Positions 12,839-39,030 of a DNA stretch of 39,304 nucleotides are shown in pieces; position 1 is the first letter of the stretch; each line of letters starts with the position of its first letter. The notes beneath the pieces were generated by a model. That model worked only from the letters and a program-made list of their open reading frames with translations, was not told the DNA's origin and ran no database searches. The position numbers and the translations under genes are program-made. The stretch is from Pirellulales bacterium (lineage in GTDB: Bacteria; Planctomycetota; Planctomycetia; Pirellulales; Thermoguttaceae): positions 1 to 39,304 of the forward strand of contig JAFGDS010000072.1 in assembly GCA_016931995.1 (NCBI GenBank), in the 5' to 3' direction.

Positions 12839-12844
12839 CGTTGA

Positions 12845-13236: not shown

Positions 13237-13250
13237 TCCACAGGGGCGTC

Positions 13251-14399: not shown

Positions 14400-14628
14400 G
14401 GCAGATCCCTGAGTCGCCGGAGCGGCGCACGCGCGCCGCCCCGGCGCTCAGTCCAAAGCCCCGTCGTGAAGCGCTTGCCGGAGCGGTTGACCCAGTAACC
14501 GCGCGATCCGGCAAGGTGATGCTCCTACCCAGGAGGGAGGGCAGTGTCGCGGTTCCCGCAAACCCGACACGGCGACGGGGCTTCCACTAGACGCGTTGTT
14601 TTGGGGTGACTCCTCGTGGAGGTGAAAT

Positions 14629-14757
14629 GGCCAATGACCAAATCGCAATGCCCAACAAATGTCCCAAGTGCCAATGCTCAAAGATGTCTGGGATGTGTTT
14701 TTCCCGTTTTCGATAGTAGTCCCTCTTTGGTCATTGGTGCTTGGTCATTGGTCATTC
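14629..14757. repeat. Imperfect long inverted repeat upstream of mraY
   Basis: GGCCAATGACCAA at 14629-14641 is mirrored by two TTGGTCATTGGT-type units at 14728-14757. The 365-base gap 14400-14764 between mraY and murF contains this element and no gene I can support. A 77-residue minus-strand frame at 14448-14681 lacks any domain or ribosome-binding site. The large gap within a cell-wall operon suggests that mraY may have its own promoter or that the operon has been invaded by repeats. Confidence 0.6.
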
Positions 14758-14764
14758 CTTGCCT

Positions 14765-16150: not shown

Positions 16151-16185
16151 GGTAAATCTTGCGGGCTTGTTGCCTTGGCCGCGCG

Positions 16186-22100: not shown

Positions 22101-23695
22101 CCGGCGTGTCGCTCATTTCGCCCCCGCCGCACCACGACATCTACTCGATCGAAGACCTGGCCCAATTGATTTACGACCTGAAGGCGGCCAATCCCGGCGT
22201 GAAGGTCTCCGTGAAGCTGGTGTCCGAGGTGGGCGTGGGCACGGTGGCGGCGGGCGTGGCCAAGGGTAACGCCGACGAAGTGCTCGTAAGCGGCCACGAC
22301 GGCGGCACGGGCGCGAGCCCGCTGTCGTCCATCAAACATGCCGGCGCCCCCTGGGAGATCGGCCTGGCCGAGACCCAGCAAACGCTCGTGCTCAACGGCC
22401 TGCGCGACCGGATCCTCGTGCAGGTGGACGGGCAGCTTCGCACCGGACGCGACGTCGTGATCGGGGCCCTCCTGGGCGCGGAGCGGTTCGGCTTCGGCAC
22501 GGCCGCGCTCGTGTCGCTCGGCTGCGTCCTCATGCGCAAGTGCCACCTGGGCACGTGCCCCGTGGGCATCGCCACGCAGGACGAGGAACTGCGGGCCCGC
22601 TTTGCCGGCAGGCCGGAGCATCTCACGCGGTATCTCACGTTCGTGGCCGAGGACGCGCGGCGAATCATGGCCGAGCTGGGATTCCGCGATTTCGACGAGA
22701 TGGTCGGCGCGGTCGACCGGCTCGATTGCCGCAAGGCCGTCGAGCACTGGAAGGCCCGCGGGCTGGATTTCTCGGCCCTGTTTGCGCCGCCGGACGCGTC
22801 CAACGGCTGCGCGCTAAGGTGCGTCCGCCCGCAGACCGACACGCACCAGGACCACTTGGATTGGCGAATTCTCGAAGAACTCGGCGACGCGATCGCGACG
22901 AAGAAGCCCACGCGGATCGAGATCCCCGTGCGGAACATCCACCGCGCGGTCGGGGCGATTTTGAGCAACCGGATCGTGCGGGCGCACGGCGCGGCGGGAC
23001 TGCCCGGGGAAACCCTCACGATCACCTGCCGCGGCTCGGCCGGCCAAAGCTTCGGGGCGTTTCTCGCCCCCGGCGTATGGCTGCGTCTGGTGGGCGAGGC
23101 GAACGACTACCTGGGCAAGGGGCTCTCGGGCGGGCGGATCAGCGTCGAAACGCCCGACGGATCGCCTTTCCTGGCCATGAACAACGTCATTGTCGGCAAC
23201 ACGCTCCTCTACGGCGCCACGGCCGGCGAGGTGTACATCAACGGGCTGGCCGGCGAGCGGTTCGCCGTGCGCAACAGCGGCGCGGTCGCCGTGGTGGAGG
23301 GCGTCGGCGATCACGGCTGCGAATACATGACCGGCGGAACCGTCGTGGTGATCGGACGCACCGGGCGCAACTTCGCGGCGGGCATGAGCGGCGGCGTGGC
23401 CTACGTGCTCGACGAGCATCAGCTCTTCGACACGCTGTGCAACCTCGACATGGTGGACCTCGAGTCGATCTGGCAGGAGGAGGACCGCCGGCTGCTGCAC
23501 GATCTGATCGAGAAGCACGTGCACTACACGGGCAGCCGGCAGGCACGGCGGATCCTGGAGAAGTGGGAGGAGATGGCCGGCCAGTTCGTCAAGGTGATGC
23601 CGACCGACTACCGCCGGGCGCTGGCGAAGCTCCGCGAGCGCGAGCAGGTGGGCGACGAGATGACGCCCGCCACGGAGGAGGTCTACCATGGCTGA
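19136..23695 (+). CDS. gltB: Glutamate synthase large subunit
   Basis: This 1519-residue subunit releases ammonia from glutamine and uses it to aminate 2-oxoglutarate. The class II glutamine amidotransferase domain starts at Cys21 in HEHDACGIGAIV, so a 20-residue propeptide is expected to be removed. It is followed by the central domain and the FMN-binding synthase domain (KRFYTGAMSHGSISKEAHE and GHDGGTGASPLSSIKHAG). The 3Fe-4S cysteines are Cys1130, Cys1136 and Cys1141 in GCVLMRKCHLGTCPVG. The C-terminal GXGXG helix region (GGTVVVIGRTGRNFAAGMSG) ends the protein. Length is normal. A GAGAAG precedes the ATG. Its stop overlaps the gltD start by eight bases, and GGAGGAG inside gltB serves as the gltD ribosome-binding site. 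Confidence 0.98.
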   Translation: MRSTPPPARGLYDPAHEHDACGIGAIVNISGRREHAIVDYGRQVLLNLLHRGAAGADESTGDGAGILMQIPHELLAAECDPLGFALPAPLEYGVAMVFRPQKAELRRRCEEILVETVRAGGLSVFGWRDVPTDNTCLGQIARAAEPVVGQLFVGGGGLRDEVLERRLFVVRKRAEHRARRELGPEAADFYVCSMSCRTIVYKGMFFAPQLWGYYPDLSDERAATALAIVHQRYSTNTFPSWRLAQPFRMIAHNGEINTLRGNAHRLQGYEKTMRCPALAEDLSNLFPILEPGASDSASFDNAMELLVRAGRSAPHALMMMIPEAFGSRYHISTDKRAFYEYHAAIMEPWDGPAAMVFSDGRLVGGTLDRNGLRPCRYLVTTDDLVVMSSEAGVIEFPPDRIRLKGRLQPGRMFLVDTREGRIVVDNEIKGKIARQKPYRRWLDANRIELRGLFQPSHAAQIDATTLADRLRCFGYTREHLQTIVAPMAANAQEPVGSMGTDTPLAVLSNRPKLLFDYFKQLFAQVTNPPIDPLREGLVMSLMSFTGKQRNLLAETPEHCRQLKLSHPILTNEDVQRLCAVDRADFRVARLSALFDADHDNPGEALRRAIDELVESAERAIRDGASLLVVSDRDVTARQAPIPSLLATGSLQHGLLARRLRGEAGLVIESGEPREVMHFCLLCGYGANAINPYMAFEAIQKLHADGVLPQEVDLDQLTDQYITAVKKGILKTMSKMGISTLRSYHSAQQFEAIGLARELVDAYFTGTASRIGGARLDVIARETLARHAAAYRPRPAGELDLDFDGEYTFRLDGEKHLWNPATVTHLQQAVRRDDAAEYTRFAEAVNRQDRDLCMLRGLFEFVPGAPVPLEEVTPAAEIRKRFYTGAMSHGSISKEAHETMAIAMNRLGGMSNTGEGGEDPRRYQPSPDGDSANSSIKQVASARFGVTIEYLSQAKVLQIKMAQGAKPGEGGQLPAHKVTDEIARLRHSTPGVSLISPPPHHDIYSIEDLAQLIYDLKAANPGVKVSVKLVSEVGVGTVAAGVAKGNADEVLVSGHDGGTGASPLSSIKHAGAPWEIGLAETQQTLVLNGLRDRILVQVDGQLRTGRDVVIGALLGAERFGFGTAALVSLGCVLMRKCHLGTCPVGIATQDEELRARFAGRPEHLTRYLTFVAEDARRIMAELGFRDFDEMVGAVDRLDCRKAVEHWKARGLDFSALFAPPDASNGCALRCVRPQTDTHQDHLDWRILEELGDAIATKKPTRIEIPVRNIHRAVGAILSNRIVRAHGAAGLPGETLTITCRGSAGQSFGAFLAPGVWLRLVGEANDYLGKGLSGGRISVETPDGSPFLAMNNVIVGNTLLYGATAGEVYINGLAGERFAVRNSGAVAVVEGVGDHGCEYMTGGTVVVIGRTGRNFAAGMSGGVAYVLDEHQLFDTLCNLDMVDLESIWQEEDRRLLHDLIEKHVHYTGSRQARRILEKWEEMAGQFVKVMPTDYRRALAKLREREQVGDEMTPATEEVYHG

Positions 23696-25115
23696 TCCCC
23701 GCGGATTTCTGACCTACCCCCGCGTCTCGCCCGGCTACCGCGGCGTCGCCGAGCGCGTGAAGGACTTCGCCGAGGTGGACGCGCTCCTGCCGGTCGAAAC
23801 GCTCCACCAACAGGCGGCGCGGTGCATGGATTGCGGAATCCCCTTCTGCCACGCGGCGGGCTGCCCCGTGCTCAATCGGATCCCCGAGTTCAACGATCTG
23901 GTGTATCAGGGACGGTGGCGCGAGGCGGCGGACAATCTGCACTCGACGAACAACTTCCCGGAAATCACCGGCCGCGTGTGCCCCGCCCCCTGCGAGCCCG
24001 CCTGCACGCTGGCGATCAACGCCGATCCCGTGACGATCAAGCACATTGAACTGCAAATCGCCGAGCGGGCGTTTAACGAGGGCTGGATCGAGCCGGCCGC
24101 GATCGGCGCCCGCACGGGCCGGCGCGTGGCGGTGGTGGGCTCCGGGCCCGCCGGCTTGGCCGCCGCGCAGCAGTTGGTCCGAGCCGGCCACAAGGTCGTC
24201 GTCTTCGAGAAGGACGACCGGGTGGGTGGGCTCTTGCGGTACGGCATCCCCGACTTCAAGCTCGATAAAGACGTGCTCGACCGTCGGTTGGCGCAGATGA
24301 TCGTCGAGGGCGTGAAGTTTGAAACCGACGTGAACGTCGGCATCGACGTCTCGACGCGCTATCTCCGCAAATCGTTCGACGCGATCTGCCTGTGCCTGGG
24401 CGCCGGCGAGCCGCGGCCGCTCGAGGCGCCCGGCGCCGAGCTGGGAAGCGTCCACTTCGCCATGGACTTCCTCCGGCAGCAAAACCGCACGATTGCCGGC
24501 GACGATCTGGCCCGGCGCGGCGAAACGTTGATCCACGCCGCGGGCAAGCACGTCGTCGTGATCGGCGGGGGCGACACGGGCAGCGACTGCGTCGGCACGT
24601 CCATCCGCCAAGGCGCCGTCTCGGTCACCCAACTCGAGATCCTCCCCAAGCCGCCCGAGGGCGCGAACCCGGACACGCCCTGGCCCGCCTGGCCACGGAT
24701 TCTGCGGACGTCCAGCTCGCAGGAAGAGGGCTGCGCGCGGCGGTGGAGCGTCCAGACCCGCTCGCTCACCGGCGAGTGCGGCCACGTGACCCATCTGCAC
24801 GGGTGCGAGGTCGAGTGGACCCGCGGCCCCAAGGGCTGGCAGATGCGCGAGCGGCCGGGCAGCGATTTCACGATCAAGGCCGATCTGGTGCTCGTGGCGA
24901 TGGGCTTTCTGCACGTCGTTCACGCTGGCTTGGTCAACCCGATGGGCATCACCCTTGACGGTCGCGGCAATGTGGCGGTGGCCAACCACGCGACCCACCT
25001 CGAAGGTGTCTTCGCCGCGGGCGACGCCGTCCGGGGAGCCTCGCTCGTGGTCCACGCCATCCATGCCGGCCGGCAAGCCGCCCGGGCGATCAACGCCTTT
25101 CTGGCGTCGAAATAG
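23688..25115 (+). CDS. gltD: Glutamate synthase small subunit
   Basis: This 475-residue subunit passes electrons from NADPH through FAD and iron-sulfur clusters to GltB. The N-terminal cluster domain has CMDCGIPFCHAAGCP and CPAPCEPACTLAI. The FAD-binding motif is VAVVGSGPAGLAAAQQLVRA, with GGLLRYGIPDFKLDK following. The NADPH-binding motif is VVVIGGGDTGSDCVGTSIR, and the end motif is GVFAAGDAVRGASLVVHAIH. All features of the usual bacterial GltD are present at normal length. The start overlaps the end of gltB, indicating co-translation of equal amounts of both subunits. Confidence 0.98.
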   Translation: MADPRGFLTYPRVSPGYRGVAERVKDFAEVDALLPVETLHQQAARCMDCGIPFCHAAGCPVLNRIPEFNDLVYQGRWREAADNLHSTNNFPEITGRVCPAPCEPACTLAINADPVTIKHIELQIAERAFNEGWIEPAAIGARTGRRVAVVGSGPAGLAAAQQLVRAGHKVVVFEKDDRVGGLLRYGIPDFKLDKDVLDRRLAQMIVEGVKFETDVNVGIDVSTRYLRKSFDAICLCLGAGEPRPLEAPGAELGSVHFAMDFLRQQNRTIAGDDLARRGETLIHAAGKHVVVIGGGDTGSDCVGTSIRQGAVSVTQLEILPKPPEGANPDTPWPAWPRILRTSSSQEEGCARRWSVQTRSLTGECGHVTHLHGCEVEWTRGPKGWQMRERPGSDFTIKADLVLVAMGFLHVVHAGLVNPMGITLDGRGNVAVANHATHLEGVFAAGDAVRGASLVVHAIHAGRQAARAINAFLASK

Positions 25116-25263: not shown

Positions 25264-27477
25264 ATGGTCGGGCATTCCTCTTTCGGCGGTCGTTCGATCC
25301 GTGTGGCTTCTCTCTTGGGAGTCGTGGCGACTTTGGCCGCGTTCGTCCTGACGAGCTGGGCGGCCGAGTGGAAACCCGTCACGGAAAGGACCAAGCTGAA
25401 GCGGGGCGATAAGGTGCAGGTGCAACGGCTCGGTCAGTGGGTCGATGGCGTGGTCGTCGGCGTGAACCAATCGGGCTGGATCGGGGTGCGCTTCCGGGAC
25501 GAACACTTCGGCGGCAGGGAAATGACCCTGACGCTGCCTCGCGATCATTTCCGTATTCCCGCCGCGCCCCGCCGGCCGCGGAATCTGGTTCCGGCAAACG
25601 AGAACCCCTTCGAGCCGGCGAAGAAGACGCGGACGTGGTCGGACAACACGGGCAAGTTCAAGATCGAGGCCGAGCTGGTCGAGGTGCTCGAAGACGCCAT
25701 TCGCCTGAAGCGGCCGGACGGCCAGGAGATGACCGTGCCGCGGGCCCGCCTGAGCCGCGAGGACCGCGAGTATCTCAGGAGCCTGCAACAGGCGGACGAT
25801 GAAGACGACGACCGTTTTGGCCAGGATGACGAAGAGGATGACTCCGGTTTTCCGATGAAGGACGCCGACGTGAGCGGCGCGACGGTGGTCATGCTTGCCC
25901 AGGCGCCGAAGCCGGAGAATCTGGCCCCCGACGCGGTCGCGCCGCCGAAGGAGCCAAACGCGCGGCCCGTGGCGCTTCCCGCCAAGGGGGACTTCTTCGA
26001 GCAGATGGAGGGGTTGCTCGTGGCGGCGTCCGATCCGAAGAGGGCGGTGCTCGTCTTCGAGAATCGGCACCACAACTACACCCGCCACGTCCTGGCGACG
26101 CTCGCGCCGGGCAGCCGCGCGTCGGCCGCGCTCGAGGGGGCGGACGGGATGAAGGCCATCGACCTGTCGCCGGCGGGCGACCTCCTGCTGACGGTGCCCG
26201 CGGGCCGATTCCACGACCGGACCAGCCGCGTCGACGTGTGGCGCATCGCGGGCACGAAGCTCGAACACGTCGTCGGCTGGCAGCCGTATGCGGCCGGAAC
26301 GCGCGGGTTCCGCGGTGTGGAATGGGGCGCGTTCGTCGACGCGGATCACGTTCTGACCGGCGACCTCCAAGGCAGGCTCGTCCTGTGGAAACTGCCGGAG
26401 GTAAAGGCCGTGTACACCTGCGAAGGCCGGTTCAACATGGCGCCCGCGCTGAGCGCCGGGCGGAAATACCTGGCCGTTTCGACGGCGGAAGGCGTCGCCG
26501 TGCTCGACGCGAAGTCGGGCGAGACGCTGGGCGGGTACCGCGGCCCAAACGCCTGGGGCACGCTCAGCTTCCGCCCCGACGGCAAGCAGATCGCGCTGGT
26601 CTCGGCCAACCGGCTCACGGTTTGGGACTTTTCGACGGGCGAGCTGTATCGCGACATCGGCCTTTCGGTTGGCCCATGGCACGGCGGCGGCATCGCCTGG
26701 CCGTCGCCGGGCTACTTGCTCGTGGGCAACAAGTATTTGATCGATCTGGAGCACTACGTGCCCTTGTGGGAGTATCGGCCGGCCCCGGGCGCGCACGGCG
26801 GCGCGATGGCGTTCGACATCGGCGGGCAGTTCTGGTATCTCCTGCCGGGGACGGGAGGACAGGCGCTGCTGCCGCTTTCGCTGCCCCACGACGAGGCCAA
26901 ACAGGTCGCCGCGCAGCTCGACGCCAGCAAGCTCCTGGCCGTCCGGCCGGGCATGACGGTCACGCTCGAAGTGAACGTGTCGGCCCAACCCAACGAAATC
27001 CAACAAGTCACCGACCATCTCACCCGCCTTCTGACGGCCAACGGCCTGAAGGTTGCCCCGGGCCAGCCGGTCAAGCTCGTGGCACAGACGCGGCCGGGTG
27101 AAGCCACCGACGAGACCTACGGCCCCTTTGGTCCGTTCTCCCGCAGGCAAAAACAGACCGTCCAATTCCAGGAGCACGTCAGCGAGGTGGCCTTCGTCGT
27201 CGCCGACAAGAAGGCGTGGAGCGTCTCGTCGCTGACGCAGGCGCCGCATTCGCTTCACCTGCAGGAGGGCGAGACGTTGGAACAGGCGCTGGCGAAGTAC
27301 GCGCAACCCAACGTCCAGTTCTTCCAGAAAGTCAACCTTCCGCAGTGCATCGCATGGCCGCGGGAGCAGGACGTCTACGGCGCCACGGAGATCTCGCCCC
27401 AGGGGCTGCACCCCGCGGCCGTACGGCCCAAGGCGCCGAAGACGCCCCAACCACCCGGCAGCGACCTGCGGACGTAA
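25264..27477 (+). CDS. Exported SHD1-domain and WD40-like protein
   Basis: This 737-residue protein begins with an apparent signal peptide or anchor (hydrophobic residues 15-33, ending SWAAEW). An SH3-like segment follows at about 35-90 (KLKRGDKVQVQRLGQWVDGV). Next is an SHD1 domain at about 120-170 (TRTWSDNTGKFKIEAELVEV, then RLKRPDGQEMTVPRARLSRE), a module found in many planctomycetal proteins. A very acidic stretch near 178-196 (DDEDDDRFGQDDEEDD) leads into a degenerate beta-propeller of WD40-like blades at about 235-480 (GRLVLWKLPEV, GVAVLDAKSGETLGGYRG, RLTVWDFSTGELYRDIG). The last 200 residues are not recognised. Function is unknown; a scaffold or sensor role at the cell envelope is only inference. 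Confidence 0.8.
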   Translation: MVGHSSFGGRSIRVASLLGVVATLAAFVLTSWAAEWKPVTERTKLKRGDKVQVQRLGQWVDGVVVGVNQSGWIGVRFRDEHFGGREMTLTLPRDHFRIPAAPRRPRNLVPANENPFEPAKKTRTWSDNTGKFKIEAELVEVLEDAIRLKRPDGQEMTVPRARLSREDREYLRSLQQADDEDDDRFGQDDEEDDSGFPMKDADVSGATVVMLAQAPKPENLAPDAVAPPKEPNARPVALPAKGDFFEQMEGLLVAASDPKRAVLVFENRHHNYTRHVLATLAPGSRASAALEGADGMKAIDLSPAGDLLLTVPAGRFHDRTSRVDVWRIAGTKLEHVVGWQPYAAGTRGFRGVEWGAFVDADHVLTGDLQGRLVLWKLPEVKAVYTCEGRFNMAPALSAGRKYLAVSTAEGVAVLDAKSGETLGGYRGPNAWGTLSFRPDGKQIALVSANRLTVWDFSTGELYRDIGLSVGPWHGGGIAWPSPGYLLVGNKYLIDLEHYVPLWEYRPAPGAHGGAMAFDIGGQFWYLLPGTGGQALLPLSLPHDEAKQVAAQLDASKLLAVRPGMTVTLEVNVSAQPNEIQQVTDHLTRLLTANGLKVAPGQPVKLVAQTRPGEATDETYGPFGPFSRRQKQTVQFQEHVSEVAFVVADKKAWSVSSLTQAPHSLHLQEGETLEQALAKYAQPNVQFFQKVNLPQCIAWPREQDVYGATEISPQGLHPAAVRPKAPKTPQPPGSDLRT

Positions 27478-27532
27478 GGCGCCCACCAGCACGCCGTGCC
27501 GGGCGAAGCGAGGCGCCCTGGGAGAACGCATC

Positions 27533-29557
27533 ATGAAGCGATTCATCAAATTGGTTGGCGCGGCATTCGTCATGGCGACCGGTGTCGGCGCCGGCTTGGG
27601 CGCGGAGCCGGCCGAGGGGAAACCCCTCGCGATTCGCGTCGTCGTTACGGCCGACGAGCTGGCCGATGCGCCGGCCAGTCCGATGATCTGCGGCAACTTC
27701 ATCGAGGCGGGCTTCGGCCGGCAGACGGAGGGGATGTGGGCCCAAATGCTCTTCAACGGGAGCTTCGAGGAGATCCCGCCGTACACGGCCGCGCTTTACG
27801 ATACGCTCGGGCACGGGCCCAAGGACGATCTCGCCGCCCAGCCGTGGTGGCACAGCGGATACGAGGAAAACCCGTGGGAACTGGCCCCCGGCAACGACGA
27901 GGCGAAGTGGCGCCGCGCCGACCACGTCGGCTTCTGGCGGGGCCAATGGGGCGGGTGGCTCGCCAACCCGAGCAAGACCCGCTGGGCCGCCGTGATCCAA
28001 CGCGGCCTGTATCTCCGCAAGGGCGAGACCTACCGGTTCACCAGCATGTTGCGGACCGGCCGGTACCCCTGGGACCTTGCCTCCGAGGACGTGTCGATCC
28101 AGGCGGAGCTTCGGCTGTATCCCGAGGGCGGCGGCGCCGTCGAGCCGATCGCGCGCAAGACGATCGACGGCATTGGCAAAGGGCTGTCGCCCAAAAGCTG
28201 CACGATCGCCAACGCCGACCACGAGGGTCGCGCCACGTTCGGCCTGTGGATACCGCCCGAGACGAACCTGGGCATGGACGACCTGTCGCTCATGCCGGCG
28301 TCGAACGTCCAGGGATGGCGCCGCGACGTGATCGAGCTTTCCCGGCGACTCCGCCCGCCCATCGTCCGCTGGCCGGGCGGCTGCTTCGCCTCGTTTTACC
28401 ACTGGCGCGACGGGATCGGTCCGCGGAGCGAACGCCGGCCCGTGACGAGCTGGTTCTGGGGCGGCCTGTACGACAACGACGTGGGCACGCCGGAATTCGT
28501 CCAGTTCTGCCGCCTGATCGACGCAGCGCCGCTTCTTTGCGTGAATATGATGACCGGCAGCGCCGACGAGGCGGCCGATTGGGTCGCCTACTGCAACGCC
28601 CCGGCGGATCATCCCGTGGGACGTCTGCGGGCGCGGGACGGCTTTGCCGAACCGTTTCGCGTGAAGTATTGGGAGCTGGAAAACGAGCCCTATCGGCGGT
28701 TCACGCCCGACGAGTACGCCCAGCGCTGCGCGGAGTTCGCCCGGCAGATGCGGGCGGTCGATCCGACGATCGAATTGGCCGTGGTGGGCTACGATCCCTT
28801 CCGGCCCCACGTCGGCGAGATCTTGGAGATCTGCGGCCAACACGTCCAATACGTCATTGACCGGGCAACGGACGAAGAAACGCTCCGCGGCGTGCTGGAC
28901 GCGGTCCGCGACTACAATAAGAGACACGGCAGACGCGTGCGCCTGTGCAACACGGAGTGGCCGGCCCCGGAATGGGAGCGGCCCGCCAACGTCGACGAGG
29001 CCGCGCTGGCCAAGATCCCCAACGTCAAAGGTCGGCAGCGATGCTGGTACAGCGCGCTGAACGTGGCGCGGATCCTCCTAACGTTCCAGCGGCTCGGCGG
29101 GGACCTCGCTTTCTCGAATTTCAATAACTTCGCCAACACCTGGGGCCAGAACGCGATCGAGTGCCCCAAGGAGACAACGTATCTCGCGCCGGTGGGCGAG
29201 GTGATGGAGCTGTTCGTCAGGTCGCCCGCGGCGTGGCCGCTGGCACTCTCTGTCGACGACAAGCCGGAGGGCGTCGAGATTCAAGCGGCTTGGAACGCCG
29301 ACCGCACGGCGCTGTGCGTCAACGTAATCAACTACCGCGACGACGCCGTGACGCTGCGGTTTGACCTTGGCCGGCTGCGCCGGAAGTTCGCCCAATGTGA
29401 TGCCACGGTTCTTTGGGCGGACTCGCTTACCAGCTACGCCACGCCCGAGCGGCCCAACGTGGTCCAGCGCGGCCAGTCGAAGGAGAAGTTGTCCGACGGC
29501 GCCGCGTTGGACCTTTCCGTGCGGCCGTACGCGCTCGTCCACGCAGTGCTCGAGTGA
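27533..29557 (+). CDS. Exported GH51-like alpha-L-arabinofuranosidase
   Basis: This 674-residue protein has a signal peptide (residues 1-24, ending GAGLGA). A carbohydrate-binding-like beta-sandwich covers roughly 100-265. A GH51/clan GH-A barrel follows with RPPIVRWPGGCFASFYHWRD. The likely general acid/base is Glu385 in YWELENEP (Asn-Glu pair typical of the clan) and the likely nucleophile is Glu475 in LCNTEWP. A C-terminal beta domain ends the protein. GH51 enzymes remove terminal arabinofuranosyl groups from plant arabinans and arabinoxylans; a few act on other glycans, so specificity is not certain. The start is preceded by GGGAGA. It converges with a DUF2961 gene that may also act on arabinofuranosides. 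Confidence 0.82.
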   Translation: MKRFIKLVGAAFVMATGVGAGLGAEPAEGKPLAIRVVVTADELADAPASPMICGNFIEAGFGRQTEGMWAQMLFNGSFEEIPPYTAALYDTLGHGPKDDLAAQPWWHSGYEENPWELAPGNDEAKWRRADHVGFWRGQWGGWLANPSKTRWAAVIQRGLYLRKGETYRFTSMLRTGRYPWDLASEDVSIQAELRLYPEGGGAVEPIARKTIDGIGKGLSPKSCTIANADHEGRATFGLWIPPETNLGMDDLSLMPASNVQGWRRDVIELSRRLRPPIVRWPGGCFASFYHWRDGIGPRSERRPVTSWFWGGLYDNDVGTPEFVQFCRLIDAAPLLCVNMMTGSADEAADWVAYCNAPADHPVGRLRARDGFAEPFRVKYWELENEPYRRFTPDEYAQRCAEFARQMRAVDPTIELAVVGYDPFRPHVGEILEICGQHVQYVIDRATDEETLRGVLDAVRDYNKRHGRRVRLCNTEWPAPEWERPANVDEAALAKIPNVKGRQRCWYSALNVARILLTFQRLGGDLAFSNFNNFANTWGQNAIECPKETTYLAPVGEVMELFVRSPAAWPLALSVDDKPEGVEIQAAWNADRTALCVNVINYRDDAVTLRFDLGRLRRKFAQCDATVLWADSLTSYATPERPNVVQRGQSKEKLSDGAALDLSVRPYALVHAVLE

Positions 29558-29576
29558 GGCCGCGGTGACGGCGCCT

Positions 29577-29681
29577 CCCCTCTCCCGCTCGCGGGAGAGG
29601 GGCCGGGGGTGAGGGGATCTGGCGAAGCACTGGCAAAGCCAGTGGCACGCTACGCCACCCTCTCCCGCTCGCGGGAGAGGG
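29577..29681. repeat. Array of three palindromes between convergent glycosidase genes
   Basis: The 128 bases between the two convergent stop codons consist largely of repeats: family B at 29577-29602 (CCCCTCTCCCGC arm and its complement), a family A copy at 29627-29648 (CACTGGC-AAA-GCCAGTG), and family B again at 29658-29681. All can form strong hairpins in either transcript, so the array probably acts as a bidirectional terminator even without T-tracts. Confidence 0.8.
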
Positions 29682-29685
29682 GCTA

Positions 29686-31641
29686 TTACGGCGCCGGTTC
29701 GTAATAGAACGCGGCGCTGCGGTAGTCGGCGGGCACGCGGTTGTCGGCGCCGTGCTCGATCTCGGCGCGGATGGTCGAGTCGTAGGGCACCGGATCGGTC
29801 AGGTGCCAGCGGAACGCCGAGGCCTGGTTCCGCTCGCCCACCAGGCGGTAGACGGGAAACCCATGCAGCGGCTGGGCCCCGGGCCCGTTGAGCCGGCCGG
29901 GAAGGGCGTACCAACCGCAATTGAAATAGTCTTCCGAGCCGGTCCCGTGGATCGCGAGCCGGCCGTCCACGGTGAACCGCTCGTCGCCTTCGAGCCACAG
30001 CGGCAGCTTCTCCTTCGTCTGGCCCTCGGTGACCAGATAGGTCCCGACGTAGTGGCCCGTGCCCTTGCGATCGAGGAACGGATGGTACACGTCGGGCTTG
30101 GTGGGCACGCTCTCGTTGTAGGCCGTGTGCAGGTAGCCCCATGTTTCTATCGCGCCTCCGGTCACCCCCGTGAGGATCCGGAGTTTCGCCTTGATCGGCT
30201 TGTCGGTCGAAACCGTGACTTGCGCCGATTGTCGGTACGGCATCGGCAGAAAGTTGTACCAGCCGGCGTCGTTCGTGCCGGTCAGAAGCGCGCGGTAAGG
30301 CGGCGCGTCCTGCGCCTGGCAGAAGAGGAACTCGGCCGGCAGATCAACGGCGGGTTCCTTGGCCCCGTCCCAGCGGATTTGGATCCGGGCTTTCGCGGCC
30401 GCTTTGAGTTCCTCGGGCGTGCCCTCCAGCAGGATGGCTCGGACCATGCGCGACCCCTTGGGCAGGTCCGCCCGGCGGGATTCGCGCTCTTCGAGGTTCA
30501 AGTCAACGACGGTTTCCTCCACGTTGGCCAACCCCAACGCGTCTATCTCGCCCGGCTTCGACCAAAGCCGCACGGCGGCGTCGAGCGCTTCCTTGCGCTG
30601 GGGCGACATATCCATCGTGAAGCTGCGCACGTCTGGGGTGGTCCAGAACGTGCGGTACGTGATCTGGAAGAACCGCACGCCCGTGCCCTCGACGAGGATC
30701 TTGCAGCCGTCGCGATAGGCGATGGGCACGTAGCAGTAGAAGCCGCCCTGTCCCTCGCCCACCAGCGGCCTGGGAAACCGCGCGAGTGCGCCGCTGAATA
30801 TGTCCTCCAGCGGCACATCCAGGGCCGGCTCGTCGCGGCCGTCGACGTAGATCTTCAGGTGTTCCTTTTTGTAGTTGAGCAGGCCCGGCCTTCCCGTGGA
30901 ATGGGTGAACCAGATCCGTTCGATCGCGCCCGCGTCGCGCATGACGGCCAGGACGCTGTTGCCGTCCTCGATCCAGAGCTTCGAGTACGTGCCGCCGAAT
31001 CCGTCGTTGTTCCCGCCCGTGCGGTCGTAGCTACTGAACATCCGGCAGCTCTCGTCCTGTCGCAGCTCGGTCAATCGCCCGAGATCGTGGAGACGGGCCC
31101 AGAGATCGACCTCGCCAGGCGAGGCGGGATCCACCTCGACAGGCGGCGCGGCCGCGCGGAGCGTGATCCGGTCGATTCCAAATCGCGTGCCCTGCGACTC
31201 CTTGTTCTTGCCGACGATTTCGACCATCAGGACGTGCTCGCCCTCCTGCAAATCATGTACGCCCAAGGGCACGGGCGGGGTCAGGCCGACCCACGGGCTC
31301 CACAGGTCGATCCGGCCGCCGACCTTGCGGCCGTCGAGCGAGAACTGCACGATCCCGTAGTCCGGCGCTTTGGTCAGCGTGACGGCCAGGTGTTGCCGGC
31401 CGGACCGCTTCACCGGCACGAACAGCTCGATCTGGTCGCCGGGCTTGGCATCCTTCCAAAAGAGCTGATCGTTGTTATCCCACTTGCCCAGCGGAAAGCC
31501 CTCCATCGTCTGAACCGTGACCGGCCCGCCGGGCGCCGAAACCACCAGAAAGCCAGCCACAGTGCGAAGGTTCTTGTCGGCCGCGACCGCGGGCAAGGCA
31601 AGGCAGCACAACAATAGCAACGTGGGCGTGAAGCGTTTCAT
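29686..31641 (-). CDS. Exported DUF2961 (GH172-like) glycosidase
   Basis: From the ATG at 31641 this 651-residue protein starts with a clear signal peptide (MKRFTPTLLLLCCLALPAVA). A jelly-roll-like region follows at about 25-150 (QHLAVTLTKAPDYGIVQFSL, then GVHDLQEGEHVLMVEIVG). The DUF2961 part shows NNDGFGGTYSKLWIEDG, ERIWFTHSTGRPG, and near the C-terminus the conserved GTGSEDYFNCGWYA and QPLHGFPVYRL. DUF2961 now includes glycoside hydrolase family GH172, whose characterised members act on difructose anhydride or on D-arabinofuranosides. The upstream extension to 31719 lies in repeat-containing DNA and is rejected; AGGA precedes the chosen start. It probably works outside the cytoplasm alongside the GH51-like enzyme. 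Confidence 0.82.
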   Translation of the reverse strand: MKRFTPTLLLLCCLALPAVAADKNLRTVAGFLVVSAPGGPVTVQTMEGFPLGKWDNNDQLFWKDAKPGDQIELFVPVKRSGRQHLAVTLTKAPDYGIVQFSLDGRKVGGRIDLWSPWVGLTPPVPLGVHDLQEGEHVLMVEIVGKNKESQGTRFGIDRITLRAAAPPVEVDPASPGEVDLWARLHDLGRLTELRQDESCRMFSSYDRTGGNNDGFGGTYSKLWIEDGNSVLAVMRDAGAIERIWFTHSTGRPGLLNYKKEHLKIYVDGRDEPALDVPLEDIFSGALARFPRPLVGEGQGGFYCYVPIAYRDGCKILVEGTGVRFFQITYRTFWTTPDVRSFTMDMSPQRKEALDAAVRLWSKPGEIDALGLANVEETVVDLNLEERESRRADLPKGSRMVRAILLEGTPEELKAAAKARIQIRWDGAKEPAVDLPAEFLFCQAQDAPPYRALLTGTNDAGWYNFLPMPYRQSAQVTVSTDKPIKAKLRILTGVTGGAIETWGYLHTAYNESVPTKPDVYHPFLDRKGTGHYVGTYLVTEGQTKEKLPLWLEGDERFTVDGRLAIHGTGSEDYFNCGWYALPGRLNGPGAQPLHGFPVYRLVGERNQASAFRWHLTDPVPYDSTIRAEIEHGADNRVPADYRSAAFYYEPAP

Positions 31642-31692
31642 GGGATTTCCTCGTTTGCGGGTGTGGGTGGCGGACGTCGCGCGTCGGGCAGA

Positions 31693-31757
31693 GTGGCACT
31701 GGCTCCGCCAGTGTGTCAACAGTCCAGCCGAACAAGCACTGGCAAAGCCCGTGGCAC
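31693..31757. repeat. Inverted pair of family A palindromes
   Basis: Copies lie at 31693-31713 (loop TCC) and 31736-31757 (loop AAA, one mismatch in the arm), in opposite orientation, 22 bases apart. They are within the 331-base region between the divergent DUF2961 and LarA-like genes, 52 bases upstream of the DUF2961 start. The rest of that region (31758-31972) has no gene I can support and no clear promoter. Confidence 0.85.
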
Positions 31758-31972
31758 GCGGACTGGATCGTCGGCCAAGTAGGGGTCAATGACGAAACGG
31801 ATCGACCACCAGCCTACCGTCCGGCGTGTCGTTTTTCCACCCCCCCAGGTTTGGATTCCGTCAACCGCCGAGGGGCGGCCGTTGCCGTGCGGGCCTTGTC
31901 GGAAAGGCCGTGGCGCGGATAGGCTGGTGTAGTAATTCACGCTGTTGGGGTCTTATCCAGCGAGTACCACCC

Positions 31973-33250
31973 ATGACCACGTATTTCGCCGAAGGATCGC
32001 CGGCGCGCGACCTCTCGACCGACGACCTGCGGGCCGCCTTGGACCACTGCTTCGCGCGGATCGGGCCGCGGGAGAAGGTGCTGGCGATTCCGCCCGACTT
32101 CACCCGGGCCAACAGCATGGCCGGGCCGCTCGTGTGCATGGTTTACGACCACTTCGGCCCGCGGCTGGCCGACGTGATGCCCGCCCTGGGCACGCACAAG
32201 CCGATGAGCCGCGAGCAGCTTCGCCACATGTTCCCCACGCTACCCATCGAGCTGGTCCGCGAACACGACTGGCGGCGCGACGTGGTCACGATCGGCGAGG
32301 TGCCGGCCGACTTTGTCGCCCAGGCGACCGAGAGCATCTGGACCCGCCCTTGGCCCGCCCAACTCAACCGGCTCGTCTGGCAGGGCGGCCATGACCTCAT
32401 CCTCTCCATCGGCCAGGTCGTCCCGCACGAAGTGATCGGCATGGCCAATTACAACAAAAACCTCTTCGTCGGCACGGGCGGGGCCGCCGGCATCAACGAA
32501 AGCCACTTCATCGGCGCCGCCTACGGCATGGAACGCATGATGGGCCGCGCCGATACGCCCCTGCGGCGGATCCTCAACTACGCCCAGGACCACTTCTGCA
32601 AGCACTTGCCGGTCGTGTTCATTCTGACCGTGATCGGACCGCGCGAGGACGGAACCCTTGCCGTGCGAGGGCTGTTCGTCGGCGACGACGCGGACTGCTT
32701 CCAACGGGCGGCCGCGCTGTCCGTCGAGGTGAATTTCACCGTCCTCGACGAGCCGCCGCGGACGATGGTCGTCTATCTCGATCCCGAGGAGTTTCAAAGC
32801 ACCTGGCTGGGCAACAAGGCGATCTACCGCACGCGGATGGCCATCGGCGACGGCGGCGAGCTGATTGTCCTGGCGCCGGGCGTGGAGACCTTTGGCGAGG
32901 ATCCCGAGATCGACCGGCTCATCCGCAAGTACGGCTACCGCGGCACGCCCGAGACGATGCGCGCCGTCCGCGAGACGGACGACCTGCCCAAAAATCTCTC
33001 GGCCGCCGCGCATCTAATCCACGGTTCATCCGAGGGCCGTTTTTCGATCACGTATTGCCCTGGGCGGCTCTCGCGCGAGGAGATCGAGTCGGTCGGCTAC
33101 CGCTGGGCGGACTTGGCCGAGATGACCCGCCGCTACCCGCCGGACCGGCTTCGCGACGGCTGGAACACCCTGCCCGACGGCCAGCGGGTCTTCTTCATCC
33201 GCAACCCCGCCCTGGGTCTCTGGGCGTCGCGGGCGCGGCTCGGCGGATAA
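31973..33250 (+). CDS. LarA-like (DUF2088) nickel-pincer racemase/epimerase family protein
   Basis: This 425-residue protein has the N-terminal DUF2088 pattern: IPPDFTRAN (the DxTR motif), and His75 in ALGTHKPMSREQL. Next come His152 and Lys162 in VVPHEVIGMANYNKNLFVG, and His177 in INESHF. In lactate racemase LarA the equivalent His, His, Lys and His hold the nickel-pincer nucleotide and do catalysis; the His-to-Lys spacing (10) is identical, and the next His is 15 instead of 16 residues on. The residues for cofactor binding therefore appear intact. The substrate is unknown; LarA homologues act on various 2-hydroxy acids. No larB, larC or larE is present in the window. A GTG/ATG extension to 31826 is rejected as non-coding. 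Confidence 0.8.
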   Translation: MTTYFAEGSPARDLSTDDLRAALDHCFARIGPREKVLAIPPDFTRANSMAGPLVCMVYDHFGPRLADVMPALGTHKPMSREQLRHMFPTLPIELVREHDWRRDVVTIGEVPADFVAQATESIWTRPWPAQLNRLVWQGGHDLILSIGQVVPHEVIGMANYNKNLFVGTGGAAGINESHFIGAAYGMERMMGRADTPLRRILNYAQDHFCKHLPVVFILTVIGPREDGTLAVRGLFVGDDADCFQRAAALSVEVNFTVLDEPPRTMVVYLDPEEFQSTWLGNKAIYRTRMAIGDGGELIVLAPGVETFGEDPEIDRLIRKYGYRGTPETMRAVRETDDLPKNLSAAAHLIHGSSEGRFSITYCPGRLSREEIESVGYRWADLAEMTRRYPPDRLRDGWNTLPDGQRVFFIRNPALGLWASRARLGG

Positions 33251-33427: not shown

Positions 33428-36022
33428 ATGGGGCCGGATCGAAGCGATCTTAGCACATGCCGCCGACGGCGCTCGGGTCCCCGCTGGCTGCTCTGGGGAC
33501 TGGTCTGCCTCGCGTCTCTTCTTTCCGTGACGGGCTGCGGCGGGTGCCGGCAAGACGAAAAAACCGAGGCCGAGAAAGAGGCCGAACGCCGGGCCAAGGA
33601 AGAAGAGGCCAAAAAGCCCGACTTCGAGTTCGGCAATCTCGTGGCCCAGCCGCTGGACCAGTCGAGCGAAAAGAACCGGACCGTGCTGTGTTTCTACAAG
33701 CCCGGCCACTGGACGAGCACGCTCCTGCCGGCCAAGGCCAACAAGGAGGACTTCGTCGGCCAGTTGAACGTCGAGGTCACACGGCGAAGCGAATCCGGCG
33801 GGGCCACCCGCGAGCCGATGCCCCTGCCGGGCGTCGCGTACACGATGACCCAATCGCGCGACGTGGCTCTTCCCAAGGGCCAGCCCAAGCTCTTGAGCGG
33901 CTACCTCTTCGTCCCCCCTTCCACGAAGGACGAGCAGGCGTCCGCGCGGCTCACGCTGGCCACGCGCGGCGGAGGGAACACCCGTGCGGAAGTGCCCACG
34001 CTGCTGACCCGGATGCCCGCCCATCAATACCACTTTGTCGTCCTCGCCCGCGGCCCGAATCGATATCAATACCTCAAGTCGCTCGACTCCGTTTGCCCTC
34101 CGGCCGACGCGATGATCAACCAGCTCCAGCGGCGGCACTACCAGGTGTCGCTCCTGAAAGCCGGCTCGCGGCTGCCGCTTCCGACCGACGCCCTGTATTG
34201 GACGAGCATCGCCTACGTGCTCTGGGACGACGCCGACCCGCAGTCGCTTAGCGTCGATCAGCGCCAGGCCCTGGTCGATTGGCTCCATTGGGGCGGACAG
34301 CTCATCGTCAGCGGCCCGGACACGCTGGACACGCTTCGCGGCGACTTCCTGGACGACTACCTGCCCGCCACGGCCGCCGGCGTGTGGGAACTGGCCGCGG
34401 CCGACTTCGACGAGCTGAACGCCCGGCTGGCCCGGCCGGGCCAGCCGGCGCTCAAGCCCACCGGACACTGGACCGGCGTGAAGCTCGCGCTGGCGCGGGA
34501 CGCCCAATTCGTGCCGGGCACGGGCAAGCTCCTGGCCGAACGCCGCGTCGGCCGAGGGCGGATCGTCGTCTCCGCCCTCAGGCTGAGCGACCGCAACCTC
34601 ATCACTTGGGCCGGGTTCGACGGGCTGGTGAATTCGTGTCTTCTTCGCCGACCGCCGCGGAAGTATCACGCCGGCGAGTTCGGCGACGTGGAACTCCGTT
34701 GGGCCGACGAGAAGGCCGATTCCCATGACGCCGGGCGCACCTGCTCGCTGCGCTACTTCAGCCGCGACGCGGGCGTGGCCCGAGGCCAATACACGCGGGG
34801 ATTCGTCCCCGAGCAGGCCGTGGCCGAGCCCACGGCGACGATGGCCTATCCCACGGGCATGGGCGAGCCGGCGCCGGATCTCGCGGACGATACGTCCAAG
34901 ACCGCCGGGCCCGGCGTGGCCGCGTGGTGCGACTTTGGCCCCGTGCCCTCCGCCGCACGCGAGGCGCTGGCCAACGCCGCCAGCGTCGAGGTCCCCGGCC
35001 GCTGGTTCGTCGTCTGGATCGTCGCCGCCTACCTCGTCGTGCTCGTACCGCTCAATTGGCTCGTCTTCACGGCGCTGGGGCGCGTGGAATGGGCCTGGGT
35101 CGCCGCGCCCGTGATCGCGGTGGCCTACACCGTCGTGGTCATCCACATGGCCCAATTGGACATCGGCTTCGCCCGCTCGGAGACCAACGTCGGCGTGCTG
35201 GAGATCCAATCGGGCTACGCCCGGGCGCATCTGACCCGCTACACCGCGCTGTATACCTCGCTGACCACGTATTACCGCGTCGAACACGAGGACCCCGGCG
35301 CGATCGCCCAGCCGTTTTCCGAACTGGAAGACCCGCGCGAGTTCAAACCGCTTTCCTGGCAGCGGTACGACACGCTCACGTATCATCACGGCAAGGAGTC
35401 CCAGCTTGCCGGCCTGCTCGTGGCGTCCAACTCGACCGACTCGGTCCACACCGAGCAGATGGTCGCGATGGAGGGTAAGCTCGACTTGATGAAGGACTCC
35501 CGCGGGCGGTGGCAATTGCTCAACCGCACCGGGTTGCCCCTGTTCGGCGTTGGCATCTTGCATCGCGCGGACGACGGCCGAATCGAGACGGCCTGGGTCG
35601 GATCGCTCGGGCCGTTTTTCAGCGCGTCGCTCGACTTCGCGCGGGCGGCCGACCAGGACGGTCCGTGGTGGCCGGACCAGCGCGACGCCGAGCCGCAGAC
35701 CGCCGCCGAGCCCACCCGGGGCGTCTGCAACATCCGCAAGATGATGGACCTGGCCGAAAACCCGGCGGAACTTCGACCGGGTGAGTTCCGGCTTATCTGT
35801 TGGACGGATCGGCATCCGCCGGGCGTCGAGGCGCGGCCCGCCGCGCCGCAGTCGCAGTCGGCCGTGCTGGTGGTGGCCCACCTGCGCTTTGCCCCGCCGC
35901 CCGCGCCCGAGCCCGACGCGAATACGAAGGAGTCGTTCGAGAAGGCCGACCGGCGGGTCGGGCCAGAGGACTTTTTGGACGAGGACGCCCTGCCCAACGG
36001 CCCGAATCCCGCGGTACAATAG
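33428..36022 (+). CDS. Large lipoprotein with membrane segments, ABC-associated
   Basis: This 864-residue protein starts with a basic stretch and a lipoprotein signal ending SLLSVTGC (Cys37). A charged helix follows (EKTEAEKEAERRAKEEEAKK). The main part contains YVLWDDADPQSLSVDQRQAL and WLHWGGQLIVSGPDTL, the glutamine-amidotransferase-like pattern seen in large planctomycetal envelope proteins of this kind. Two hydrophobic segments lie near residues 525-576 (VVWIVAAYLVVLVPLNWLVF and VAAPVIAVAYTVVVIHMAQL). The rest is probably a beta-rich exported domain. It ends seven bases before an ABC ATPase, so the two are one operon, similar in layout to Gld-type or polymer-export clusters. The ATG at 33428 is used instead of an upstream GTG at 33377. 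Function is unknown. Confidence 0.75.
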   Translation: MGPDRSDLSTCRRRRSGPRWLLWGLVCLASLLSVTGCGGCRQDEKTEAEKEAERRAKEEEAKKPDFEFGNLVAQPLDQSSEKNRTVLCFYKPGHWTSTLLPAKANKEDFVGQLNVEVTRRSESGGATREPMPLPGVAYTMTQSRDVALPKGQPKLLSGYLFVPPSTKDEQASARLTLATRGGGNTRAEVPTLLTRMPAHQYHFVVLARGPNRYQYLKSLDSVCPPADAMINQLQRRHYQVSLLKAGSRLPLPTDALYWTSIAYVLWDDADPQSLSVDQRQALVDWLHWGGQLIVSGPDTLDTLRGDFLDDYLPATAAGVWELAAADFDELNARLARPGQPALKPTGHWTGVKLALARDAQFVPGTGKLLAERRVGRGRIVVSALRLSDRNLITWAGFDGLVNSCLLRRPPRKYHAGEFGDVELRWADEKADSHDAGRTCSLRYFSRDAGVARGQYTRGFVPEQAVAEPTATMAYPTGMGEPAPDLADDTSKTAGPGVAAWCDFGPVPSAAREALANAASVEVPGRWFVVWIVAAYLVVLVPLNWLVFTALGRVEWAWVAAPVIAVAYTVVVIHMAQLDIGFARSETNVGVLEIQSGYARAHLTRYTALYTSLTTYYRVEHEDPGAIAQPFSELEDPREFKPLSWQRYDTLTYHHGKESQLAGLLVASNSTDSVHTEQMVAMEGKLDLMKDSRGRWQLLNRTGLPLFGVGILHRADDGRIETAWVGSLGPFFSASLDFARAADQDGPWWPDQRDAEPQTAAEPTRGVCNIRKMMDLAENPAELRPGEFRLICWTDRHPPGVEARPAAPQSQSAVLVVAHLRFAPPPAPEPDANTKESFEKADRRVGPEDFLDEDALPNGPNPAVQ

Positions 36023-36029
36023 ACGCGCC

Positions 36030-36956
36030 ATGATCGAACTCATCAATTTCACGAAGCGCTACGGCGACCTGACGGCGGTGGACGGACTCAATCTGAAGAT
36101 CGAGCCGGGGGAAACTTTTGGCTTCATCGGGCCCAACGGGGCCGGTAAAAGCACGACGATCCGCTTTCTGGCCACGCTTCTGAGGGCCACCGGCGGCGAG
36201 GGAATCGTCAACGGCCACCGCGTCACCCAGGCGCCGCTGGAGGTCCGCCGCAGCGTCGGCTATATGCCCGACAGCTTCGGCGTCTACGACGGCATGAAGG
36301 TCTGGGAGTTCCTCGATTTCTTCGCGGTGGCCTATCAGATCCCCAAGGCGCGGCGCAAGGCGGTCATCGGCGACGTGCTGGACCTGTTGGATCTGACGGG
36401 CAAGCGGGACGACTTCGTCAACAATCTCTCCCGCGGCATGAAGCAGCGGCTGTGCCTGGCTAAAACGCTGGTGCACGACCCGCCCGTACTGATCCTCGAC
36501 GAGCCGGCCAGCGGCCTGGACCCCCGCGCGAGAATGGAGGTCAAGGCGCTTCTTAAGGAGCTGCGCCGGATGGGCAAGACCATCCTCATTTCCAGCCACA
36601 TCCTCACCGAGCTGGCCGACTGCTGCACGTCGATCGGGATCATCGAGCGGGGGCGGATGCTGATGCACGGGCCGATCGACCAAGTGTACCGTCAGATCCG
36701 CCGCAACCGCGTCGTGGTGATCAAGTGCCTTGACAAGGCCGACATCGCCGCGTCGATCGTCCGCAGCCTGCCCGAGACGCAGCAAGTCCAGCTCGACGGC
36801 GCGACCCTGACCGCCGAACTGGCCATGGACGATCAGCAAGCCGCCGCCCTTTTGGAGCGCCTCGTGGCCCAAGGCGTCCGCATGCGGAGCTTCGCCGAAA
36901 AAGAGCCGACGCTGGAAGACGTCTTCATGCTCGTCACCAGGGGCGCGGTGGCGTAG
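36030..36956 (+). CDS. ABC transporter ATP-binding protein
   Basis: This 308-residue ATPase has Walker A GPNGAGKST (residues 34-42), signature LSRGMKQRL, Walker B VLILDEPASGLD and switch His in ISSHILTEL. A C-terminal extension of about 90 residues ends EPTLEDVFMLVTRG, typical of export-type ATPases of the NatA/CcmA/GldA group. It must pair with a membrane permease, yet no permease gene follows: the next gene is a small minus-strand membrane protein, then a recombinase remnant. The lipoprotein upstream has only two central membrane helices and is not an obvious permease. The start ATG at 36030 is set by the family N-terminus (MIELINFTKRYGDLTAVDGL). Confidence 0.95.
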   Translation: MIELINFTKRYGDLTAVDGLNLKIEPGETFGFIGPNGAGKSTTIRFLATLLRATGGEGIVNGHRVTQAPLEVRRSVGYMPDSFGVYDGMKVWEFLDFFAVAYQIPKARRKAVIGDVLDLLDLTGKRDDFVNNLSRGMKQRLCLAKTLVHDPPVLILDEPASGLDPRARMEVKALLKELRRMGKTILISSHILTELADCCTSIGIIERGRMLMHGPIDQVYRQIRRNRVVVIKCLDKADIAASIVRSLPETQQVQLDGATLTAELAMDDQQAAALLERLVAQGVRMRSFAEKEPTLEDVFMLVTRGAVA

Positions 36957-37995: not shown

Positions 37996-39030
37996 CTAAA
38001 GAACATCGTAGAGGCGTTCCACCGACATCTTCTTCACAGCCTTGCGGTGAGCCTTGCTCGGGAGGCATCTCTCGGAGAACACGGCCATGTCGAGCCAGGC
38101 GAAATCCAGGTCGCGCTTCGTTTCAAACAAAGCCTTCAAGAGCGGCCGGGCCGTTTCCAGGTCGTTGGCGTCGGTGGCGTCCACGAAGGTCTGCAACTGT
38201 GGCACGACCTCGGCGAGGTAGTCGCGGACCAGCGTTTCGACTAGATCGTGTTCGACGCGAAAATGGCCGCACCCGTGCGGGGCACGCGAACCCCATCGCC
38301 CGTATTCGGCGCAGATGTAGCCGGGGGCCAAGCCGTTCCTCTCGTTACCGGATTGTGCCCGCATGGGCTTGCCGCACCTTGAGCACACAAGAAGACCCTT
38401 GAGCCAAAGGTGGGCGTTCTTCGGGGCGCGGTAGACACGCTTCTTCGTGGCGGCCAGCTTCGCCCGCGCCTTCTCGAATACCTCGGGGGCAACGACGGGT
38501 GGGAATTCCTCTTTATCTGGCGCTATCTGATCGGCCTTGTCGCGGGGCCGGTCGGTCTTGCGTGCGGCCGTTCTGACCTGCCCGTTGCTGAATTCCATGA
38601 AACGACCGCCGCTTTCCTTGTTGTACGTGGGGCGGCCGAGATAGACCGGGTTTGTCAGAAGGTGCTTGATCGTGTTCTGATGCCAAAGCGGTCCGTAAAC
38701 GGTCGAGACGCCCAGATCGTTCAGCCGCACGGCAATCTGCCCGGCGCTGATTGACTCGGTGGTGAACCATTTGAAGATCCGCTTCACGTACTTGATCCGC
38801 TCGGCCACGATCGACGGCCGGTACTTCAATGTCTCGTGCAGGGCCTTCGGCGGGACGTTACGCTTGCCATCGAAACGCTCTCGGCGGCCCTCTGGATAGA
38901 CTCTGACCCGCTTGTTATGTCCTTCATAAACGCATCGCCATTGTTCCTTGCCCTCGACATCGAAACACACGATGTCCATCCCATGGGGCACGAGTCCGCC
39001 CAGAAAATGCCCCTTGCGGGCGAGTGTCAC
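37996..39030 (-). pseudogene. Large serine recombinase, recombinase and zinc-ribbon domains only
   Basis: The 344 residues from the GTG at 39030 show the recombinase domain (ARKGHFLGGLVPHGMD; IFKWFTTESISAGQIAVRLN; WHQNTIKHLLTNPVYLGRPT) and a zinc beta-ribbon with CSRCGKPM and later Cys residues (YICAEYG, HGCGHF). The reading frame ends at TAG (37996-37998) exactly where the coiled-coil tail should continue, and the tail does continue in frame beyond it. Upstream, the frame is open only to a TAG at 39178-39180. That stretch reads as Pro/Arg-rich sequence with no trace of the serine-containing catalytic domain. The protein therefore lacks the active site and is likely a decayed integrase of a mobile element. 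Confidence 0.75.

Follow-up and report, generated by a model that had tools for sequence, protein, structure and literature searches.

Two convergent genes at positions 27533-31641 of a 39,304-nt stretch of DNA from a Pirellulales bacterium (GenBank assembly GCA_016931995.1, contig JAFGDS010000072.1; the whole stretch is hereafter the window) raise the question of whether they form one system for the degradation of an arabinofuranoside, as an initial annotation had proposed, and of what each gene product does. P0001 is a glycoside hydrolase family 51 (GH51) protein and P0002 a DUF2961/GH172 protein. On a narrow balance of probability, we read P0002 as an exported retaining exo-alpha-D-arabinofuranosidase of the 1.5-DUF2961 type of GH172 and P0001 as a separate, divergent GH51 protein, with no conserved system uniting them. 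The genome holding the window (G000) comprises 5.43 Mb in 153 contigs and is 99% complete; it is counted in the totals of 60, 392, and 396 genomes that underlie the comparisons below.

P0002 (29686-31641, minus strand, ATG at 31641, 651 amino acids) scored 193.6 bits against DUF2961 (PF11175; cut-off 27) and also matched four GH172 structures (8ic8, 4kq7, 7v1v, and 8ah3), which agrees with the family named in the initial annotation. Behind a signal-peptide-like start, four parts were distinguished, all on the minus strand. A carbohydrate-binding-like module (residues 27-165; 31147-31563) came closest to MiXBM (7ehg; 125 residues of the predicted model superposed at 2.3 A with a Z score of 15.1 and 27% identity; sequence expectation value (E) 4.4e-8); the binding module is N-terminal in P0002 and follows the catalytic part in many relatives. 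The first jelly roll, JR1a (approximately residues 183-342; 30616-31095), was recognized by the fold match of a sub-model and carries N211 and D213. The second, JR1b (approximately residues 370-495; 30157-30534), lacks this N/D motif, and its borders are our own reading. The third, JR2 (approximately residues 500-651; 29689-30144), carries E551 (29989-29991) and E570 (29932-29934).

The extra half domain in front of the full one was apparent from the DUF2961 stretches, the profile alignment, and the predicted models. Pfam gave a full DUF2961 domain at residues 417-647 and a second, partial stretch, which in the genome search lay upstream at approximately residues 259-333. In the profile alignment with three of the four solved GH172 proteins, the start of jelly roll 1 aligned to JR1a and the alignment then jumped to JR1b and ran through JR2, the JR1a pieces being weak by themselves (E 0.0003 to 0.1); this jump accounts for the two separate DUF2961 stretches. 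The AlphaFold2 model of the whole protein (mean predicted local distance difference test (pLDDT) 82, predicted template modeling score (pTM) 0.74) showed three successive strand sets, which we read as jelly rolls, and residues 180-500 modeled by themselves reached pLDDT 90 and pTM 0.86. Predicted residues 354-651 superposed on the GH172 double jelly roll of 8ic8 (Z 29.2, 2.6 A, 280 aligned), and residues 370-651 superposed on 7v1v (Z 26.5); the match of the predicted model to 4kq7 had Z 28.3. JR1a (residues 4-163 of its sub-model) matched jelly roll 1 of both 8ic8 (Z 11.1, 3.1 A, 142 aligned) and 7v1v (Z 10.5, 3.2 A, 146 aligned). The PF11175 match, the catalytic glutamate pair, and the jelly-roll fold of the predicted model together place P0002 in GH172.

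The active site could be located by comparison with alphaFFase1 (7v1v). E551 and E570 aligned with E270 and E291 of that enzyme, which are its acid/base and nucleophile, respectively (PMC8605356), and were present in all 50 aligned proteins, so that the catalytic glutamates have not been lost. By analogy, E551 and E570 would act as they do in alphaFFase1. N211 and D213 aligned with N31' and D33', which bind calcium from the neighboring protomer (PMC8605356), and were kept in 49 of the 50 proteins, the remaining row being truncated. F324 stood, in a hand alignment, at the place of Tyr187', where a Phe is reported to leave alphaFFase1 active (PMC8605356). These partner-side residues were found in JR1a and, as far as could be aligned, not in JR1b; therefore, we infer a site shared between two chains, one contributing JR2 and the other JR1a. 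P0002 would be exported, judging from its signal-peptide-like start, and would form a dimer, as reported for DgGH172b, with JR2 of one chain holding the active site and JR1a of the partner chain completing it. Its substrate would be D-arabinan or another D-arabinofuranosylated glycan, from which it would trim D-arabinofuranose, and it may work with the GH183-like enzyme whose gene lies elsewhere in the genome.

A D-arabinofuranoside as the substrate of P0002 is suggested by the co-occurrence of GH183 and by an isomerase-family gene and a ribulokinase gene in the locus of a relative, which point to a pentose. Across 396 genomes from this order, ours among them, P0002-type genes (>270 bits, the next score being 250) occurred in 8 and DUF4185/GH183 matches at E ≤ 1e-30 (seven full-length) likewise in 8, both cut-offs having been chosen after the score gaps were seen. 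Five genomes had both (G000, G027, G033, G034, and G389; Fisher test, P = 4e-8, uncorrected for kinship). In an rpoB tree (25 of 30 requested genomes, two with partial proteins), the genomes with P0002-type genes fell into two parts. Genomes without the gene were also present in the second part, and DUF4185 occurred in both. The GH183-like (DUF4185) protein of our genome (L172:9056-10417, contig C38) matched the endo-alpha-D-arabinanase EndoMA1 (8hhv) at E 1e-12; D107 occupies the nucleophile site and D124 the acid/base site, and the third catalytic Glu was placed by manual count. It thus has three catalytic acids in common with EndoMA1 (PMC10509167) and differs from it in that the match reaches only E 1e-12 and the activity is predicted.

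The loci of relatives were examined with genes called by a simple script of our own. In a Sedimentisphaerales metagenome-assembled genome (MAG) with a P0002-clade protein (L124, 7443-18853), a gene encoding an AraC-type regulator that carries a sugar-binding-protein domain was followed by a same-strand run containing three GH172 genes, a FucI-family gene, a ribulokinase gene, and DUF6786. The FucI-family gene product matched three Pfam domains at 36, 34, and 27 bits, all over the cut-offs, and the ribulokinase matched NF003154 at 644 bits (cut-off 428) and TIGR01234 at 557 bits, just below the cut-off. Near another gene of the clade (L153) were three further DUF2961 genes, together with GH116 and a GH43-like gene. 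GH116 was also found 0.6-2.5 kb from another match of the three-jelly-roll type in six genomes (G001, G010, G013, G016, G023, and G027; by eye, among the matches listed), where those matches were not P0002 orthologues by score. Two further candidate markers were set aside: FucI co-occurrence was uninformative (47 of 60 genomes matched at E 0.001), and DUF6786, shared by L124 and a Dysgonomonas locus (L128), occurred in 117 of 396 genomes. The D-arabinan target of the initial annotation accordingly gained indirect and independent support for P0002 alone, not for the pair; nothing was found that pointed to L-arabinan as the target of P0002.

P0002 belongs to a distinct clade. The tree comprised 50 sequences (FastTree, midpoint rooted), with L155, L156, and L159 left out and eight further proteins added; it placed P0002 with proteins of Pirellulales, Sedimentisphaerales, Hydrogenedentota, Sumerlaeota, Phycisphaeraceae, and Zhouia that bear W549-L550. 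Relatives were represented by 44 named loci, of which seven (L121, L123, L151, L154, L155, L156, and L159) were left out of two alignments as truncated, fused, near-duplicate, or odd.

Several observations weigh against a D-arabinofuranosidase of this form. The P0002 clade (WLEGDE, branch support 1.00) was separate from the FFEGDD group with a Phe-Phe pair (support 0.84) that holds the Dysgonomonas protein of L128, and we know of no member of the P0002 clade that has been tested. P0002 has Leu548 where alphaFFase1 has Trp267 in the alignment. JR1a and JR1b jointly failed to superpose on the double-jelly-roll chain (root mean square deviation 14-15 A over approximately 235 residues); therefore, the ring geometry is unproven. 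Aside from the choice of the cut-offs, three of the eight genomes with P0002-type genes (G010, G104, and G318) had no DUF4185 match at E 1e-30, the DUF4185 match of G151 was partial, and, with 23 GH172 genes in our genome, the GH183 co-occurrence may reflect the whole GH172 expansion. The FucI-family gene of L124 scored 46.7 against the NCBIfam fucI model (cut-off 850); the best FucI match in our genome was partial (33.8 bits, cut-off 29.3) and of a kind common among relatives, and the genome had no DUF6786. GH172, GH183, GH116, and an isomerase, which together would make a D-arabinan utilization locus, were not assembled here: none of the other three was found in the window, and the GH183-like gene (C38) and the GH116 genes (C83 and C17) all lay apart from the window contig.

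The full DUF2961/GH172 genes just mentioned were spread over 18 contigs and included two adjacent pairs; examples of paralogue loci are L176, L177, L178, and L181-L191. Similarly many DUF2961 candidates (36-54) were counted at first look in G010, G027, G033, G034, and G389.

P0001 (27533-29557, plus strand, 674 amino acids) comprises a signal-peptide-like N-terminus, an interrupted catalytic part, and a C-terminal part; the interruption is an inserted region that the alignment places at approximately residues 70-250 of P0001. It matched the Pfam domain ASD1_dom at 32.2 bits (cut-off 22.2) and, at E ≤ 0.001, 17 PDB sequences named arabinofuranosidase, arabinosidase, or MgGH51. P0001 alone matched GH51 structures in residues 255-423 (E 5.9e-43), and the match of a profile built from P0001 and 10 relatives extended to the C-terminal ends of GH51 chains (best match 3s2c, E 2.5e-124), so that full-length membership in GH51 is carried by the family profile. 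ArfA, the sole NCBIfam model matched, scored 145.5, far short of its cut-off of 625. Glu385 (28685-28687, plus strand; acid/base position, NEP motif) and Glu475 (28955-28957, plus strand; nucleophile position, TEW motif) were invariant in 11 of 11 aligned proteins and in 27 of 27 of a second set. This second set (26 rows from 34 loci, plus P0001) was picked by motifs containing R..GG and NE, and the conservation of E385 in it is partly by choice because these motifs contain that residue. The GH51 assignment of the initial annotation was therefore upheld and the catalytic glutamates were retained; neither P0001 nor P0002 was placed outside its active family.

A histidine at the end of strand 5 sits in the pocket of GH51 enzymes. 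It was present in all 26 other aligned relatives and missing from P0001; it is no family criterion, but P0001 was filed as a divergent GH51 protein. With the GH51 alpha-L-arabinofuranosidases 3ug3, 3s2c, and 1pz3, P0001 has in common the acid/base and nucleophile glutamates and the positions of E58, R279, and N384, whereas the missing histidine and the inserted region set it apart. P0001 may be an alpha-L-arabinofuranosidase or a related enzyme whose specificity has changed. Matches at E ≤ 1e-10 were found in 32 of 60 genomes, its own included, with the best other match at 186 bits vs. 1602 for the protein itself. Among 391 other genomes of the phylum, there was one match at E ≤ 1e-52 (38% identity), and in a plasmid search that gave 346 records, the 15 matches listed had 25-28% identity. 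Two more GH51-like genes lie on contigs C136 and C75 of the same genome. The GH51 paralogue on C136 adjoins a 1066-amino-acid frame (L074:251-3451), the start of which resembles, by eye, a Cas9-type RuvC motif.

We regard it as rather unlikely that P0002, helped by its binding module, acts on some other alpha-furanoside, for instance on alpha-D-fructofuranosides or on an exopolysaccharide furanose of unknown identity. GH172 does include alphaFFase1, an alpha-D-fructofuranosidase (PMC8605356), a fact that also counts against the D-arabinofuranoside reading; the module resembles MiXBM, which is of xanthan-degrading origin, the pocket motif WLEGDE is unlike that of the Dysgonomonas type, and the 23 paralogues suggest a broad use of such sugars. 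The isomerase-family and ribulokinase genes of L124 and the GH183 co-occurrence, however, favor a pentose. A smaller probability still is given to a pair acting as a small arabinan-degradation system, with GH51 and GH172 proteins working on one L- or D-arabinan, which we regard as improbable. Arabinofuranosidases occur in both families, both proteins look exported by eye, and the genes are adjacent and have similar G+C contents (P0001, 0.67; P0002, 0.657). Against this, the genes converge and are not one operon, and their linkage was not conserved: no P0001 match at E 1e-8 (tblastn) was found in the flanks of the 44 named P0002-relative loci, some of which were cut by contig ends, and among the matches listed for 60 genomes (by eye), both genes lay within 20 kb only in the window. 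On C136, GH51 and DUF2961 genes were 37 kb apart. G027, the nearest genome in the rpoB tree, had an orthologue of P0002 and gave no match to P0001 at E 1e-10, and P0001 itself has the single phylum-wide match given above. We therefore rejected the single arabinofuranoside system of the initial annotation, P0001 being nearly without close relatives; P0001 adjoins P0002 and probably does not belong to a conserved system with it.

The other neighbor of P0002, divergent from it, encodes a LarA-family nickel-dependent putative hexonate epimerase (NPN_18; 31973-33250, plus strand; 642.9 bits, cut-off 500; start set by comparison with L069). It was the only window neighbor to recur beside a close P0002 orthologue, in the identical divergent arrangement in G027 (L116), which would fit a joint role of the two in sugar-acid metabolism. 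Such a role is very improbable. G000 and G027 were mutually nearest in the rpoB tree (support 0.71), and their shared ancestry is enough to explain the arrangement; in G010, G033, and G034 the two genes were on separate contigs, and the epimerase was over its cut-off in 42 of 60 genomes vs. P0002-type genes in 5 of 60. The linkage, common only to G027, is thereby weakened.

The surroundings of the pair were otherwise as follows. As first annotated, P0001 and P0002 converge on opposite strands; 128 bp separate them, and both N-termini were signal-peptide-like by eye. A gene for an SHD1-domain protein lies 55 bp upstream of P0001, and another gene near the pair has a product whose DUF4350 match was below the threshold. 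All 20 called genes of the window were scanned and none matched SusC or SusD, and a DrrA-type ATP-binding cassette ATPase (35781-36956; Pfam scan) was the sole transporter part found there, in agreement with the reported absence of a SusCD-like or sugar transporter nearby. A promoter and terminator scan of 27400-32100 gave counts not above those of shuffled sequences (0 vs. 0.5 and 2 vs. 3.8), and PADLOC gave no match for two window proteins. Glutamate synthase genes occupy 19136-25115; a setting similar to that of the window was seen in one Phycisphaeraceae MAG (L127:9001-18277), where a single called gene separates gltD/gltB from a gene of the P0002 clade. At 9383-17673, this planctomycete window holds genes for peptidoglycan synthesis, encoding MurB, two Mur ligases, a MurG-like protein (GT28), and an MraY-like protein (GT4). 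At the window end, a serine-type recombinase gene (PF07508, with zinc ribbon; 37996-39030, minus strand) adjoins a 280-amino-acid frame without a Pfam match.

We put forward only tentatively, and as less than likely, that this Pirellulales lineage has a dispersed capacity for D-arabinofuranoside degradation, comprising the 23 GH172 genes with GH183- and GH116-type genes and including three-jelly-roll dimeric rings with two JR2/JR1a active sites. If this were true, environmental planctomycetes would graze on actinobacterial D-arabinan or on a D-arabinofuranoside polymer yet to be discovered. D-arabinan degradation genes were first reported in 2023 (PMC10115798, PMC10509167), and if the P0002 clade is active on D-arabinofuranosides, then the capacity reaches planctomycetes and a clade whose pocket motif differs. 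No paper in the literature searched mentioned GH172 together with planctomycetes. One, PMC8812541, mentioned planctomycetes together with DUF2961; it relates the DUF2961-type fold to viral double-jelly-roll capsid proteins. The three-jelly-roll form bears on how the number of lobes may change while the active site stays between lobes. The phrase "triple jelly-roll" was not found in the literature searched; a PDB title (4ind) applies the name to a viral turret protein.

The three-jelly-roll, 1.5-domain form and the dimer have already been reported for DgGH172b (HMPREF9455_02471) of Dysgonomonas gadei PUL42, which is described as having 1.5 DUF2961 domains and forming a dimer of 146.5 kDa (PMC10115798). 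The protein of L128, from another Dysgonomonas, had a mass of 73.8 kDa with its signal-peptide-like start and 71.4 kDa without 20 residues, and its locus contained a major facilitator superfamily transporter, a further DUF2961 gene, GH116, DUF6786, and a full fucose isomerase. This locus resembles the D. gadei D-arabinan locus described in the papers, and the mass is near half of 146.5 kDa; we therefore infer that L128 holds the counterpart of DgGH172b. It was 33% identical to P0002, with the catalytic and calcium-site residues kept. Because P0002 fell into a separate clade, it was filed as having the same architecture as DgGH172b and not as a member of the same clade. The two proteins have the 1.5-DUF2961 architecture in common; unlike DgGH172b, P0002 belongs to the WLEGDE and not the FFEGDD clade, has an N-terminal binding module, and lies outside a polysaccharide utilization locus. 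With ExoMA1 (8ic8) and alphaFFase1 (7v1v), P0002 shares the fold and both catalytic glutamates; these enzymes are described as double jelly rolls in trimer-based assemblies, whereas P0002 possesses an additional jelly roll as well as a binding module.

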